44,227 bases of DNA from Magnetococcales bacterium. GTDB taxonomy: Bacteria > Pseudomonadota > Magnetococcia > Magnetococcales > DC0425bin3. A program made the position numbers and the translations under genes. Under the pieces are notes generated by a model that ran no database searches, had not been told where the DNA came from, and was given only the letters and a program-made list of their open reading frames with translations. Location: the NCBI GenBank assembly GCA_015228935.1, contig JADGCO010000030.1, positions 1 through 44,227 of the forward strand. Direction: 5' to 3'. How positions within the stretch are numbered: the stretch's first letter is position 1; every line of letters starts with the position of its first letter. Below are positions 15,950 to 21,529 of this stretch, piece by piece.

Positions 15950-16522
15950 CTACTCTCCCCTGGTGGACGCCCCTCTTCCTGGACGAAAACTGCCGAACAT
16001 TTCCCGTCGGGTCAGGTCCTGCTGCCAGCGACAGGTGAGGGATCGTTCCCTGCGGACGTTTTCACGAAACTGGATGACATCGGTCCAGGCCGCAAATACC
16101 TGATCGGCGGTTTGATATTGCGCCAACCCGATCACCAGTGGCTGGACAAGGAAAAATCCTTGCCGGGCATCATACTGGGCATGGGCCTCCCGGGTCTCCT
16201 CCAGCACGGTAACGCTGATTCTGGGACCCAGGGTTGGCAACAAAACCTTTTCCAGACGTTCCATGGCCATTTTTTGCGCCGCATCCGGGACCAGAACCCG
16301 GCACAGCATCCAGGGTGTCAGTTGCAGGAACAGGATCCAACCCGCGAGCCGTCGGAAAGACCTCATTTCATGGCCCAGAGCCGGGTTGAAAAAATCCCCG
16401 GTCAACCCAGGAACCCCCTGCTCCTGTTGCAGGCGTTCCGAGGCCGCAGCAAAGAGAGTACCATATTCCCGGAGCAGACCCGCATCGTCCGGCACCTCAG
16501 CCTCCTGTCCGGTTTCATGCAT
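15950..16522 (-). CDS. HybE-like chaperone in a molybdoenzyme operon
   Basis: A 190-residue cytoplasmic protein. It resembles HybE, the chaperone that binds the Tat signal and precursor of [NiFe]-hydrogenase-2 in E. coli. The match I can see is NPAL, then 23 residues later TPWML followed by VLVPD (E. coli HybE as remembered has HPSM and TPWML at the same spacing), and a C-terminal REMFGSFRPG that mirrors the LLFGRRSG tail. It overlaps the TorD-like gene by 8 nt (16515-16522), so the two chaperones are coupled. No hydrogenase genes are in the window; the only Tat cargo is the molybdenum subunit at 18631-21399. I infer it is a second maturation factor for that enzyme. It is the last gene of the operon. 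Confidence 0.7.
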   Translation of the reverse strand: MHETGQEAEVPDDAGLLREYGTLFAAASERLQQEQGVPGLTGDFFNPALGHEMRSFRRLAGWILFLQLTPWMLCRVLVPDAAQKMAMERLEKVLLPTLGPRISVTVLEETREAHAQYDARQGFFLVQPLVIGLAQYQTADQVFAAWTDVIQFRENVRRERSLTCRWQQDLTRREMFGSFRPGRGASTRGE

Positions 16523-17039
16523 GACTCCCTCCAAACAAATCCCGAAGCCTGGATCCCAGCATGCCATACAATGCCAGGGAAGTGGAACTGACAAGTCTTG
16601 CTGCAAATTGGGGCACCCAGACGGCCAGATGATCTTCCCACAATTCGCGCAGCAGGTCGGCATGCTCCGCAGGCTGCTGGCGCAGGTGAACCACCAGATC
16701 CAGCATGGAACCCAGATAATCCGGCGGAATTTCCGGGTTTGCCTCGACACCGGCACGCTGGAACAGGCCGGCTATGACGGGTACGAACTCTCCGCCCATG
16801 GACCCCTGCCGCCAGTAGCTCTCAAAAGGCGGACAGAGTGTCCTGGGAATGCCGTTGACAAACAGACGGGTGTGTTCGGCCTGCCATTCTGTCAACGGTG
16901 TTTGACGCAATTCCGGCAACGCGGACTGGAGCCAGGGAAACTCAGAGGCCATCTCTTCGACTGCGGCCAGAGACTCTGGCTCGGGTTGCCCCAGCAACCC
17001 GGCCAGTACAGTCAACTCATGTTCCAATGATGTCGTCAT
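16515..17039 (-). CDS. TorD/DmsD-family molybdoenzyme chaperone
   Basis: A 174-residue all-helical protein of the TorD family, cytoplasmic chaperones that bind the Tat leader and the apo catalytic subunit during molybdenum-cofactor insertion. Family hallmarks visible are EHTRLFVNG (usual 'Y.rLF.g'), then PPFESYWRQGSMGG and VIAGLFQRAGVE, then DYLGSMLDLVVHL and LRELWEDHLAVWVPQFA. The ATG at 17039 lies 10 nt after the stop of the membrane-subunit gene; upstream frame extension is unrelated to the family. Its position right after psrABC-like genes identifies the client. Confidence 0.9.
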   Translation of the reverse strand: MTTSLEHELTVLAGLLGQPEPESLAAVEEMASEFPWLQSALPELRQTPLTEWQAEHTRLFVNGIPRTLCPPFESYWRQGSMGGEFVPVIAGLFQRAGVEANPEIPPDYLGSMLDLVVHLRQQPAEHADLLRELWEDHLAVWVPQFAARLVSSTSLALYGMLGSRLRDLFGGSHA

Positions 17040-17049
17040 GGAGCGAATG

Positions 17050-18006
17050 TTACCATGGATAGGCGTAAACGCCAGCGGCCATGAAATAATGCCGCAGGAG
17101 GTACCCTCCAGACAACACCAGCACGGATGCGGTGACAATGGGCACCTTGCCACCCCATTTGCCAAAGACGCATTTCAATTCCATGGCCAGCGGAATCATC
17201 AAACCGCACACCACAAACCCGATGAACCAGCCGGAATCGTTCCACAACAACGCCGCCGACCGGTAACCAGCTTCCGAGCCGGAGAGGGTGAAGTTGAAGA
17301 ACGAGTAGATGACAACCAGTTCCGCCGTGATCAGGCCAATGTCCACCCGTTCATAGAGGGCACGAATGGAGTGATCCACCCGATGGTAGATGAACATGTA
17401 CATGACGATGAGCAGCCAGGCCATGGAGGTGGAAAAAGCAGAGACCGTGAACAGAATGGGCACACCCGGATTGTGCCACAAGACCACTGCCGGAAAACTT
17501 TGCAGCAACAACCCGGTATAGACAGCCGTTCCCAGTCCCGTGATGATGGCGATCCAGCCCAGGATGGGTTGAAATTTCTGGGCTGTTTCCGCCACATCGC
17601 GGGTGATTTTCATTTTCAGGAAGGCACCCATGACGGGCCAGTTCAGAAGGCGGGGCTTTTCCACCATGAAGGGCAACGCAAACAACACGGCGGTCAGTTG
17701 GAGCCAGAGGATGAACTGGGAACCCCAGGCAATCCAGGAGTCGGGTTTATGGAAGATGCCCCAGGGGGTCAGAATGTAAATGGCGGCCCATTTGTGGAGC
17801 AGATGGAGAAACAGCAGCCCCGACCCCAGCGCCAGCATGGCCGTGCCAGAGAGCGCCCCCCACATGACCAGCTCTTTTTCCTCACGCAGATACATGTGGG
17901 TCAGAAAGCTGACCACAATGACGGCAGCGCCCATGCCGCCCAGAAACAGATACAACGCAAACCACCAGGTCCACATATCCTGAGTGGCATAAGTCATGAT
18001 TTCCAT
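17050..18006 (-). CDS. NrfD/PsrC-type membrane anchor subunit
   Basis: A 318-residue polytopic membrane protein with about eight or nine helices, the quinol-interacting subunit of complex iron-sulfur molybdoenzymes (polysulfide, tetrathionate or thiosulfate reductase types). The N-terminus WTWWFALYLFLGGMGAAV and the C-terminal SGGYLLRHYFMAAGVY are characteristic of the NrfD family. It should pass electrons between membrane quinones and the Fe-S subunit. It starts 9 nt after the Fe-S subunit stop. Direction of catalysis cannot be told from sequence. Confidence 0.92.
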   Translation of the reverse strand: MEIMTYATQDMWTWWFALYLFLGGMGAAVIVVSFLTHMYLREEKELVMWGALSGTAMLALGSGLLFLHLLHKWAAIYILTPWGIFHKPDSWIAWGSQFILWLQLTAVLFALPFMVEKPRLLNWPVMGAFLKMKITRDVAETAQKFQPILGWIAIITGLGTAVYTGLLLQSFPAVVLWHNPGVPILFTVSAFSTSMAWLLIVMYMFIYHRVDHSIRALYERVDIGLITAELVVIYSFFNFTLSGSEAGYRSAALLWNDSGWFIGFVVCGLMIPLAMELKCVFGKWGGKVPIVTASVLVLSGGYLLRHYFMAAGVYAYPW

Positions 18007-18015
18007 GCGACTCTC

Positions 18016-18615
18016 CTACCTTTGGGGAATATAGTAGACATTGGGACGAGTCCCCAGATGGGCCATGAGAGGCTTGGCCGTACCATTGCGGACCAGTTCC
18101 GTGGCCGGATAGGCCGGGCTGTCCAGGTCACCCAACATTCTGGCCTCTCCCGGGCAGGTACGCACACAAGCCGGCAGTTCACCCAGTTTGAGCCGGTGAT
18201 GACAGAACGAGCATTTATCCATGCTGGGTGCCTTGCGTTTCAGATCCCCGTAATACTCTTTGCCGGTCTTGATGTCGTCATGCGTGTAGGGAAAACGTGC
18301 CTTGTAGGGACAAGCCAGGGCACAGGCCTGGCACCCCATGCACAAGGTTTCATCCACCAACACCACCCCATCCGAGGTCCGGTAGGTTGCCCCCGTCGGA
18401 CAAACGGTCATGCACGGCGGGTTGCTGCAATGGTTGCACAACCGCGGAATGAAATGCCGCCGTACCTTGCTGCCGGTTCCTGTTTCCCGGTCGTGAACAT
18501 AGGTCCGCCAATGGTCGGACCAGACTGGCGTTTGATTCTCCAGTGAACAGGCCGCCATGCAGGCATTGCAGCCTACACAGGTGTTCATATCGATTACCAT
18601 GACGTAATGGGTCAC
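18016..18615 (-). CDS. Four-cluster [4Fe-4S] ferredoxin subunit (PsrB/DmsB type)
   Basis: A 199-residue electron-transfer subunit. It carries four cysteine groups: CVGCNACMAAC, CNHCSNPPCMTVCP, CMGCQACALACP and CSFCHHRLKLGELPACVRTC. These would ligate four [4Fe-4S] clusters wiring the molybdenum subunit to the membrane anchor. There is no signal peptide, so it would be carried across the membrane with the Tat-borne catalytic subunit. It starts 15 nt after the catalytic gene stop. Complete and typical in length. Confidence 0.95.
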   Translation of the reverse strand: MTHYVMVIDMNTCVGCNACMAACSLENQTPVWSDHWRTYVHDRETGTGSKVRRHFIPRLCNHCSNPPCMTVCPTGATYRTSDGVVLVDETLCMGCQACALACPYKARFPYTHDDIKTGKEYYGDLKRKAPSMDKCSFCHHRLKLGELPACVRTCPGEARMLGDLDSPAYPATELVRNGTAKPLMAHLGTRPNVYYIPQR

Positions 18616-18630
18616 GATGCCACTCCTTTT

Positions 18631-21399
18631 TTAGATTTTTTGGATCCGCACGGTAAATTCCTGAGAACGGAATCCCGCAACAACAGGTTCTACCAGATAG
18701 GGGATCAGTTTGTTGGTGGCCGTGCCAATACCCACGCTGAGATGCAGAGCCTTGTTCTCCACCCCGAACGAGGAGTGCAGAAAGATGGAATCCGGATGCA
18801 ATTGGTTGGTCACATAGGCCGTACCCTCGGCCTGCTGCGCAGAGAGGGTGTTGGTCAACAAAATCCGATCACCGGTGCGAATTTCCAATGCTTCAGCCCG
18901 GTCAGGATGGATCCAGACGCCGGTGTAGATATCCTTCTTGAAACGGTTGATGGCCGCCAGCACCGGGTTGTTGCTGTTGGTTGAACCATAGGAAATCGTT
19001 GGTGTCTTCCCGTAGGTGAAATAGAACTCGTCCTTGTTCAGGGGCTGGTCCATGGTCTTGCCGTGCCGACAGGTGGCCGGAATGGATGCCGCCAGAACGT
19101 TGAAAGAAGGACCTTTTCCACCCATGCCATCCCGGAGCCAGACAAAGAGGGTGCCAAAAAACTCCAACCGGCCACTGGTCGTGGGCAGGGCCATCTGGCG
19201 CGGCATGGAGTGATGCGCCAGAATCTCCTCGGCAGGAATTTCCAAATGCACACCATGCCGCTTGAGACTTTCATGCAACTCCTTGGGCGTGGTATGAATT
19301 CTCGCCGCCGTGGTCTCGAAGGCCACATCACGACAAGCCTTGGAATAGGGACTCTTGGCTCCAAGCGCCCGGTACTTTTCATAGGCAGCCATGGTGGACT
19401 TGGCCGGGATGCCGCTCAATACTTCCAGCGTCTTCACAAACGGCTCAATCGATCCCGAAATGACCTTGCTGAGACCCAGCAATATATCGGGAGTCTCCAG
19501 GGTATCATACAGGGAATCGATGGCACTGAACCGGGTCGTCAAAGAGAGATCGTGATTGACCCCGTTGCCGTAGATGGTCGGCTCATCCCGTTCCAGATAG
19601 GTGGGGTTGGGCAGGATGACGTCGGCGTAGGGCACGGTATCCGAAGGAAGAACGTCCACCACCACCACCAACTCCATGTTGGCATGGGTCAAAATGGTCT
19701 TCCACTGGGTGTCCGGATAGTAGTGACGGACCGGATTGGCGGCGTTGATCACGATGGCCCGGGTCAGGTATGGCTCGCCGTTGTAGATCAACTTGCCGGT
19801 GACCGACTCCAACAGACCGGTGTCGGCCAGGGCCGGCACGGCCACGGCTTCCCGACCGGCGGCCCGTTCCTGGGCGGAAAAGGCAAAGGCCCAGGCGGGA
19901 TGTCCATGGGGGAAGGTTTTGGGATTGGAGATGGCTTTGATCAACTCACCCACGAAAGGCACACCCGCCATGCTGGTCATGAGGGGTCCCGGGGAACGCT
20001 TGGCCTTGTTCGCTTCATGCCAGTTGGCCACCTTGTGGTGATATTCACCGCTCATGATCCAGCCACCCTTGCGGTCGATCCCACCGACCAGGGCCTGCAA
20101 CATGGCCTGTACCCGCCGCAACATGTTGATGTTGGTATAGCGGGCACCATGCCAGCCCGGATCCACAATCGGGCGTCCGGCCGTGGCAAAGTCACGGGCC
20201 GTCTTGATGATCACCTGGGCAGGCACGCCGGTCGTCTTGGCGGCCCATTCCGGAGTATTGGCCGCAATCTCGGCAATCTGGGCCTGCAACACCGTCATCA
20301 CCGGACGCCCTTCCAGGGTCAGACCATCCGGGGCAAACAGGGCCGGATGGACCGGTGCCCCTTGAATGTCCACCACGTTCTGATGGCTGAAGGGAGGAAT
20401 GGAAACAACCCCCCCGGAACGATCCTGGACAACCCGCGGATTGCCCGCTGCATCCGTGGCAATCGCCCATGCCCCATTGGCATCCCGGGCCAGAAGGAAC
20501 GGCATGTTGGTGTGCTTCTTCAGGAAATCTTCATCATAAAGCTTTTCCGTCAGGATCACATGCAGCATGGCGACCATGAAATCCAGGTCGGTACCCGGGC
20601 GGATCCGGATCCACTCATCGGCCTTGGCGGCTGTTTCCGAGAGGCGGGTATCGAGGGCAACAACCCGGGTCCCCTTCTTGCGTCCCTCGGCAAAACGCAC
20701 CATGCGGGAGGTGGAAATGGCCCCGATGGAGGCATTGTTGGCCACAAACAGGATGTAGTTGGCATTGTCGTAGTCGGGCAAAACTTCATCGTGAATATTG
20801 AAGTTTCCGGTGACCGAGTCGGTGCCCAGATGCCCGGATGCCACGCAATGCTGCATGGGGGAGGCCACAATGTTGGGGACCCCGTTGGATATGGCAAAGG
20901 GAACGGCCCAGTACATGTAGAACACGCAGGAGGTCCAGCCCCCGACCATGGTCCATTCCCATGGTTTGATGTTTTTGGCCTTGGTTTTCGCCTCGATATA
21001 GGCCCAGGCCTCGTCCCATGTGACGGCGCGAAACTTGCCTTCACCCCGTGGGCTTCCTTCCACCCGGATCATGGGACTCTTGATGCGATCCACCTCATAA
21101 ACCTGCCGCATCCCGGCCTGGCCTCGGGCACACATCTTGCCCCGGTTCAGGGTGGAGTGGGGATTGCCATCCAGTTTGACAATGCGCTTGACCCCGTTGA
21201 CCGTTTCGGTGGTCACCTGCACATTGCACAATGACGAGCAGAAGTTACAAATGCTGTAAACCTGTTCCTTCGTTGCCTCATTGCCACTCCGGGCCTCCTT
21301 GCCAACAAGACCTGTCGGGGCCAACAAAGACAAACCCGCCACCCCCCCACTGGATTGAAGAAATCTACGTCTGGTCAACTTTGGGAATCGCCAGGACAT
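18631..21399 (-). CDS. Tat-exported molybdopterin oxidoreductase catalytic subunit (PsrA/PhsA/TtrA-like)
   Basis: A 922-residue catalytic subunit. The ATG at 21399 follows AGGAG (5 nt spacing) and gives a twin-arginine leader, LTRRRFLQSSGG at residues 8-19. The N-terminal [4Fe-4S] site is C51, C54, C58 and C90 (CNFCSSLC...GKMCARGQ). C185 in PMQHCVASGH is the candidate molybdenum ligand. The bis-MGD binding segments include GGWTSC and the C-terminal IHPDRAEALEIRTGDRILL. Family members reduce polysulfide, thiosulfate, tetrathionate or arsenate, or run in the oxidative direction; the substrate cannot be assigned by eye. Expression is probably sigma-54 dependent (promoter 21513-21529), with the activator encoded divergently. 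Confidence 0.93.
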   Translation of the reverse strand: MSWRFPKLTRRRFLQSSGGVAGLSLLAPTGLVGKEARSGNEATKEQVYSICNFCSSLCNVQVTTETVNGVKRIVKLDGNPHSTLNRGKMCARGQAGMRQVYEVDRIKSPMIRVEGSPRGEGKFRAVTWDEAWAYIEAKTKAKNIKPWEWTMVGGWTSCVFYMYWAVPFAISNGVPNIVASPMQHCVASGHLGTDSVTGNFNIHDEVLPDYDNANYILFVANNASIGAISTSRMVRFAEGRKKGTRVVALDTRLSETAAKADEWIRIRPGTDLDFMVAMLHVILTEKLYDEDFLKKHTNMPFLLARDANGAWAIATDAAGNPRVVQDRSGGVVSIPPFSHQNVVDIQGAPVHPALFAPDGLTLEGRPVMTVLQAQIAEIAANTPEWAAKTTGVPAQVIIKTARDFATAGRPIVDPGWHGARYTNINMLRRVQAMLQALVGGIDRKGGWIMSGEYHHKVANWHEANKAKRSPGPLMTSMAGVPFVGELIKAISNPKTFPHGHPAWAFAFSAQERAAGREAVAVPALADTGLLESVTGKLIYNGEPYLTRAIVINAANPVRHYYPDTQWKTILTHANMELVVVVDVLPSDTVPYADVILPNPTYLERDEPTIYGNGVNHDLSLTTRFSAIDSLYDTLETPDILLGLSKVISGSIEPFVKTLEVLSGIPAKSTMAAYEKYRALGAKSPYSKACRDVAFETTAARIHTTPKELHESLKRHGVHLEIPAEEILAHHSMPRQMALPTTSGRLEFFGTLFVWLRDGMGGKGPSFNVLAASIPATCRHGKTMDQPLNKDEFYFTYGKTPTISYGSTNSNNPVLAAINRFKKDIYTGVWIHPDRAEALEIRTGDRILLTNTLSAQQAEGTAYVTNQLHPDSIFLHSSFGVENKALHLSVGIGTATNKLIPYLVEPVVAGFRSQEFTVRIQKI

Positions 21400-21512: not shown

Positions 21513-21529
21513 GGGCAACAATCGTGCCT
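21513..21529 (-). promoter_or_regulatory. Sigma-54 (-24/-12) promoter of the molybdoenzyme operon
   Basis: Read on the minus strand the site is AGGCAC-GATTG-TTGCC, a close match to TGGCAC-N5-TTGCW, with the invariant GG and GC 10 bp apart. Transcription would start about 12 bp downstream, leaving a leader of roughly 100 nt before the ATG at 21399. The adjacent sigma-54 activator gene with an intact GAFTGA motif supports the call. Confidence 0.8.

Follow-up and report, generated by a model that had tools for sequence, protein, structure and literature searches.

A HybE-like protein coupled to a psrABC-like molybdoenzyme operon in a Magnetococcales genome

Introduction

SoeABC is a three-subunit molybdoenzyme of sulfur bacteria. 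TorD-type proteins cover insertion of the molybdenum cofactor, and chaperones of the twin-arginine translocation (Tat) pathway such as TorD work without a C-terminal docking tag. HybE is reported, in an excerpt of PMC4273604, to bind, and probably mask, the Tat leader carried by the small subunit of the hydrogenase. Sections of PMC4464133 associate dmsD/torD genes with nrfD operons and name HybE solely as a hydrogenase chaperone; SoeA is given as cytoplasmic in a portion of PMC10100899. No account of a molybdenum-linked HybE, or of a twin-arginine tail at the C-terminus of HybE, was found in searches of open-licence papers. The subject of this analysis is a hybE-like gene that closes a psrABC-like molybdoenzyme operon on a 44,227-nucleotide (nt) stretch of DNA from a Magnetococcales bacterium (assembly GCA_015228935.1, contig JADGCO010000030.1). 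This stretch, the window, is the whole of contig C30 of the genome labelled G000 (G-, L- and C-numbers are working labels of genomes, loci and contigs). The best explanation overall, and in our judgement a very probable one, is that the product is a dedicated HybE-fold maturation chaperone for the Tat-exported Psr/Phs-like molybdoenzyme encoded upstream of it, and not for a hydrogenase.

A molybdoenzyme operon ending in two chaperone genes

The operon lies on the minus strand. Its genes run from MoA (our working name for the molybdopterin oxidoreductase) through the Fe-S protein, nrfD and the torD-like gene to the hybE-like gene, which is last; gaps of 15, 9 and 10 nt separate them in turn, and the final two genes overlap:

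18631-21399, minus strand: PsrA/PhsA-like molybdopterin catalytic subunit (MoA), 922 residues; PF00384 (Molybdopterin), PF04879 (Molybdop_Fe4S4) and PF01568 (Molydop_binding)
21301-21399, minus strand: predicted MoA Tat leader, LTRRRFLQ and then a hydrophobic stretch
18016-18615, minus strand: PsrB-like Fe-S subunit, 199 residues, 16 Cys, no leader in its sequence; PF13247 (Fer4_11), E 5.7e-22
17050-18006, minus strand: NrfD/PsrC-like membrane subunit, 318 residues; PF03916, E 2.8e-25
16515-17039, minus strand: TorD/NarJ-family chaperone, 174 residues; PF02613 (Nitrate_red_del), E 2.5e-20, 73.3 bits against a cut-off of 22.2
16515-16522, minus strand: torD/hybE-like overlap of 8 nt, shared bases ATGCATGA
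15950-16522, minus strand: HybE-family chaperone, 190 residues; PF11939, 37.5 bits

The gene, strand, coordinates and overlap of the hybE-like frame are as the first-pass annotation of this DNA had given them. Overlaps of 4 or 8 nt between the torD-like and hybE-like genes are common among relatives, and the 8-nt overlap in the window suggests that the two are translationally coupled.

The upstream genes conform to the plan of a Psr/Phs complex: a MopB subunit with an Fe4S4 domain and a Cys ligand, a four-cluster Fe-S subunit and an NrfD subunit. Among solved structures MoA comes closest to Thermus PsrA (2vpw, E 5.2e-63), and the Cys of its PMQHC motif aligns with a PsrA Cys. The N-terminus of MoA, MSWRFPKLTRRRFLQSSGGVAGLSLLAP, is read as a Tat leader, a twin-arginine leader is visible on MoA in all 25 relatives inspected, and TatC and the Tat pore are present. 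The Pfam matches, 2vpw and the leader sequence thus bear out the earlier description of a psrABC-like operon with a leader-bearing catalytic subunit. Against the PhsA equivalog model MoA scores 317.3 bits, far under the cut-off of 694, and for this reason "psrABC-like" is the apt term and no substrate is assigned. Identity with SoeABC was considered and rejected: the cytoplasmic, leaderless catalytic subunit that it calls for is not what MoA, with its Tat leader, appears to be.

The last gene belongs to the HybE family

By sequence and by modelled fold, the window protein is a member of the HybE family. It matches PF11939 (NiFe-hyd_HybE) with E 2.8e-9 (37.5 bits, cut-off 25; E 5.8e-9 in the whole-genome search), a significant match that upholds the family assignment first made from motifs, and 25 of 27 aligned relatives of what is called here the molybdenum branch also match, the best with E 4.9e-24. 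A profile of these relatives (A2) finds E. coli HybE (2kc5, E 0.0023) as its sole sequence match in the PDB; 2kc5 is reached by this profile only, a plain phmmer search of the PDB with the single window protein returning nothing at E up to 1. The AlphaFold model (predicted local distance difference test, pLDDT, 85 overall and 58-63 from residue 161 on) places 2kc5 first both with Foldseek (probability 1.00, E only 1.4e-3) and with VIA-align (119 residues at Z 8.5; 5.4 for the runner-up). The window protein has no match in PHROGs and none among plasmid records.

Family membership does not extend to the canonical chaperone. On TIGR03993, the NCBIfam model of the hydrogenase chaperone, the window protein scores 23.5 bits against a cut-off of 78.5, and E. 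coli HybE scores 160.2. A canonical [NiFe]-hydrogenase assembly chaperone in the sense of TIGR03993 is ruled out by this score, by placement in a separate clade and by the absence from the window genome of an exported hydrogenase over cut-off (the last two are taken up below).

The first-pass annotation had rested its HybE pattern on three motifs, and all three are present (NPAL at residues 46-49, TPWML at 69-73, FGSFRPG at 176-182). Two of them do not carry the weight placed on them. NPAL fails as a signature of the molybdenum branch, in which only its N is common (relatives read NMAL, NHKF and so on), and FGSFRPG is not itself the conserved part of the tail; the twin-arginine stretch directly before it is. 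TPW is not universal in the family either: four hydrogenase-branch open reading frames (ORFs) keep the tail and lack TPW. The hydrogenase and molybdenum branches do not conserve the same residues; G65, S131 and P132 of the hydrogenase branch (window numbering), for example, are not kept in the molybdenum branch. One Cys, C164, is conserved in the molybdenum branch only (0.89 of 27 rows). This speaks for a role in cofactor insertion (of the molybdenum cofactor or an Fe-S cluster) with no part in the timing of export. We regard such a role as improbable: we know of no cofactor-binding motif in the HybE family, and molybdenum cofactor insertion is what TorD-type proteins already provide.

The HybE-like gene travels with the molybdoenzyme

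Genomic coupling of the molybdenum-type HybE to one type of enzyme and to a TorD-type partner is near-perfect. Within the class of the window (Magnetococcia), 48 genomes were sampled, and HybE-like proteins were scored with a branch profile (A1, E below 1e-20). MoA is found in 15 of the 48 and molybdenum-type HybE in 14, every one of them MoA-positive; in the fifteenth MoA genome (G047) the contig breaks off within nrfD. Molybdenum-type HybE is absent from all 33 MoA-negative genomes. The five-gene order is present in 13 of the 14, with MoA truncated by the start of the contig in G016. G017 carries two copies, on contigs starting within the Fe-S gene, with MoA on another short contig. Pfam missed the hybE-like gene of G001, which only the branch profile recovered. 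Three other genomes of the class (G037-G039) have canonical HybE (E 1e-32 or better); all three have an exported hydrogenase small subunit and none has MoA. Across 398 genomes sampled widely from the phylum, MoA and molybdenum-type HybE (E below 1e-20) occur solely in the window's class.

A scan of GTDB contigs with two peptide patterns, one of which contains an SRRE motif, gave 31 loci, in which counts of the twin-arginine tail are therefore biased; loci of the class and phylum sets were instead selected through PF11939 or through the enzyme. Nine are again from Magnetococcales. The 22 others belong to Allochromatium, Thiorhodococcus, Imhoffiella, Thiohalocapsa, Thiosymbion, Thiomargarita, Sedimenticola, Magnetospira, Sulfuricella and further Gammaproteobacteria; the named carriers of the operon are mostly sulfur bacteria. 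All five genes stand in order in 15 of these 22 loci, among them loci of Chromatiaceae, Thiomargarita, Sedimenticola and Magnetospira; one more has four genes from a contig edge, another has the enzyme genes inverted beside torD-hybE, and a contig edge truncates a third. Of the 21 non-class genomes examined, 20 have MoA, the exception being the genome of L100, a locus on a contig that starts within the Fe-S gene. TorD is nearly always beside the molybdenum-branch HybE. The neighbourhood survey that the first-pass annotation had proposed thus finds the pairing with molybdopterin oxidoreductases conserved across many genera.

Between the window and G003, the MoA, Fe-S and NrfD subunits are 91-92% identical, TorD 70% and HybE 59%. 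So fast a divergence of the HybE-like protein relative to the enzyme subunits fits the role of a helper.

Branches of the family

The tree of 54 HybE sequences is unrooted. It comprises 27 sequences of the molybdenum branch, 10 of 15 ThiG-linked ones and 17 of the hydrogenase branch (14 of 24 strong non-class loci and three class loci), after removal of near-copies and of ORFs whose start was unclear. Each of the three groups is split from the others by a well-supported branch (97/96, 95/98 and 100/99 for the molybdenum-, hydrogenase- and ThiG-linked groups, respectively), the molybdenum-linked clade being recovered in 96% of bootstrap trees and the other two groups standing on long branches. 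The window protein lies outside the hydrogenase-linked clade. The suggestion that it is a HybE relative repurposed to a molybdenum enzyme therefore holds as to the enzyme, given the conserved pairing and the separate clade; a hydrogenase-first origin is not something that the unrooted tree shows.

The window genome encodes a second HybE-like protein (contig C39, L067:9603-10175, plus strand) that scores 24.8 bits on PF11939, against the cut-off of 25; its model has 2kc5 as top PDB match and its tail reads SRRQLL. The gene directly follows a fused ThiS-ThiG ORF (L067:8370-9524), and a ThiG homologue is just upstream of the hybE-like gene in 14 of 15 such Magnetococcia loci. No conserved Tat cargo gene was found near the ThiG-linked hybE-like loci.

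Three orphan HybE-like proteins (L163, L164 and L165), from one other family of the phylum, have neither TPW nor a twin-arginine tail. L163 and L164 adjoin response-regulator, short-chain dehydrogenase and glutaredoxin-like genes.

Hydrogenases of the same genomes

No hydrogenase gene was found on the window contig, as had been noted at first pass. Elsewhere in the genome, matches to [NiFe]-hydrogenase large subunits lie on C113, C145 and C44, and these three hydrogenase-like clusters lend some colour to the proposal that the hybE-like gene serves a hydrogenase encoded at a distance and sits in the molybdoenzyme operon by chance. None of the clusters is of the Tat-exported type. The pair at C113:1027-6183 stands beside a PAS histidine kinase, like sensor hydrogenases; its small subunit gives the only match in the genome to the exported-type model, a match that begins at model position 53 and scores 95 bits (cut-off 179.5). 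C145 resembles a cytoplasmic sulfhydrogenase, and C44 is a complex-I-like cluster. No small subunit over cut-off, and so no Tat-exported-type hydrogenase, was found in the window genome. Exported small subunits over cut-off are also absent from 12 of the 14 class genomes with the hybE-like gene (G002 and G031 have one) and from 7 of the 21 non-class genomes. Taken with conservation of the molybdoenzyme pairing in many genera, this makes service to a distant hydrogenase a very remote prospect; a search for a hydrogenase operon that might need the gene, which had been put forward as a way to overturn the molybdoenzyme reading, has instead favoured that reading.

A leader-like motif in the C-terminal tail

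15995-16015, minus strand: Tat-like tail motif LTRREMF, residues 170-176, just before FGSFRPG; conserved in 26 of 27 relatives

Few parts of the molybdenum branch are as well conserved as this stretch. Its pattern, [LIV][ST]RRxhh (h, hydrophobic), is found in the molybdenum-, hydrogenase- and ThiG-linked branches alike: [ST]RRxhh falls within the last 40 residues of 26 of 27 molybdenum-branch and 10 of 10 ThiG-branch sequences, and RRxhh in all 17 hydrogenase-branch sequences of the tree (preceded by S or T in ten) as well as in all 27 strong hydrogenase-branch loci when these are read directly. E. coli HybE ends in HAGRRALLFGRRSSENA, with the tail GRRALLFG. (The PF11939 profile extends into the tail, matching up to positions 145-147 of 147, which biases the sets drawn with it mildly.) In the sampled neighbourhoods the motif is present in 38 of 38 HybE ORFs and in none of 566 others, the control being de-duplicated, non-overlapping, mechanically called ORFs of at least 120 residues, some of which may not be genes.

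The tails resemble the leaders of the enzyme. The pattern in MoA leaders is L[ST]RRx(F)(L/M), that in HybE tails [IVL][ST]RRx(L/F/M)(F/L); the tails mostly lack a hydrophobic stretch as strong as the one that follows the leader motif. An unscored comparison by eye showed no tie between the S or T of the enzyme leader and that of the HybE tail encoded in the same operon (T goes with S in L050 and L052, for example).

From the TPW core to the RR pair, the distance in the hydrogenase branch varies from 87 to 150 residues, as fits a short binding motif on a loose arm. What such an arm would bind is a matter of choice between two readings. It might be a docking tag that carries chaperone and cargo to TatBC, a doubtful but arguable reading: the motif lies at the very C-terminal end, after linkers that vary greatly in length, no long hydrophobic stretch follows it, and the Tat pore is present. 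On the other side, TorD-like Tat chaperones manage without such a tag. The alternative is that the tail acts inside the chaperone, as a stand-in for the leader; this is part of the scheme set out next.

Proposed role in maturation

A chaperone role for the molybdoenzyme is highly likely. In the scheme that we propose, TorD would handle the catalytic subunit during insertion of the molybdenum cofactor, and the HybE-like protein would provide a second check, covering the Tat leader of MoA, or the pre-complex that carries it, for as long as the leaderless Fe-S subunit has yet to join; the assembled MoA-Fe-S pair would then proceed to the Tat pore and dock on the NrfD subunit. The flexible Tat-like tail would be a built-in imitation of the leader that fills the chaperone's own empty leader site or aids hand-over of the cargo. 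Because MoA alone in the operon has a leader, the simplest transfer from the hydrogenase system has the HybE-like protein guarding that leader or the MoA-Fe-S pre-complex, and we infer by this analogy that it may bind the leader directly. The leader-covering step we hold at even chances; the tail as leader imitation is tentative, somewhat on the short side of even.

The choice of client surface can be made differently. The HybE-like protein might bind the leaderless Fe-S subunit and bring it to the catalytic subunit for joint export, with TorD alone taking the leader. The near-constant adjacency of TorD would suit this arrangement, as would the presence of a leader on the catalytic subunit only, which obliges the Fe-S subunit to hitch-hike, and the difference in conserved residues between the hydrogenase and molybdenum branches is what a change of bound surface should produce. 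Nevertheless, the one function described for HybE is leader binding (in the excerpt of PMC4273604), and conservation of the Tat-like tail in all three main branches is a better fit to a leader-related role, so that we rate Fe-S subunit delivery as rather unlikely.

Several observations weigh against a dedicated leader-guarding chaperone for the molybdoenzyme. TorD is already present and might cover the leader alone. The modelled tail is of low confidence (pLDDT 58-63, as given above), one relative (L081) has SRW in place of SRR, and the tail is missing from all three orphan-branch members. The window protein falls far under the hydrogenase-chaperone cut-off of TIGR03993. Outside the class, torD-hybE stands without enzyme genes in L079, L080 and L092 and the hybE-like gene stands alone in L093, the enzyme being located elsewhere in those four genomes. 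An exported hydrogenase small subunit is present in 14 of the 21 non-class genomes; service to both enzymes is therefore possible there, and those 14 do not decide the point. Finally, the case is made from sequence, model and genome context.

A broader proposal, speculative and in our estimate less likely than not, is that the HybE family as a whole acts as a gatekeeper of Tat export, its members carrying their own twin-arginine imitation on a flexible C-terminal arm, as competitor or hand-over tag. Hydrogenase would then be one client, the molybdenum branch would work in tandem with TorD, and the ThiG-linked branch would serve other clients.

Regulation and flanking genes

21515-21528, minus strand: sigma-54-type promoter-like site, GGCACG-N4-TTGC, upstream of the operon; also in L051 and L056
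21639-23183, plus strand: divergent PAS-AAA+-helix-turn-helix sigma-54 activator; PF00158 (E 5.7e-66), PF08448, PF02954
14656-15945, minus strand: ankyrin-repeat protein, directly downstream; PF12796, E 1.1e-62; start uncertain

The site upstream of MoA, which resembles the sigma-54 consensus, and the divergent activator together suggest sigma-54 control of the operon. A homologue of the activator stands at the same place in nine Magnetococcia loci, and the activator is likely to be the regulator of the operon. The ankyrin-repeat protein, secreted-looking and with a GAAQPG repeat linker, has homologues at the same place in seven Magnetococcia loci; its association with the operon is possible.

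Implications

In the family models that name it, HybE is described as a hydrogenase assembly factor, so that genomes like that of the window would be credited with a hydrogenase maturation that they may not have. With its fixed pair of unrelated Tat chaperones, this one molybdoenzyme is a clean setting in which to ask why certain redox enzymes require two checks prior to export. For cargo release by Tat chaperones, the conserved leader-like tail offers a direct handle, approachable first in E. coli HybE and hydrogenase-2.

Comparison with known systems

E. coli HybE, the hydrogenase-2 assembly chaperone (2kc5), shares with the window protein its fold, the TPW core, the C-terminal RRxhh tail and a gene placed with those of a Tat-exported redox complex. 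The window protein differs in its client genes, which are those of a molybdenum enzyme, in its separate clade, in not keeping G65, S131 and P132, and in the TorD-type partner beside it. TorD and DmsD (NarJ family) share the kind of client, and one such protein is encoded next door, but their family is unrelated to HybE. The Psr/Phs complexes share the three-subunit plan, the aligned Cys of PsrA and the Tat leader; MoA differs in length (922 residues, against 765 for Thermus PsrA) and in its PhsA score (317.3 bits against 694), and neither polysulfide nor thiosulfate reduction is assigned to it from its sequence. SoeABC likewise has the three-subunit plan, and is set apart by the Tat leader of MoA, which is predicted to be exported.

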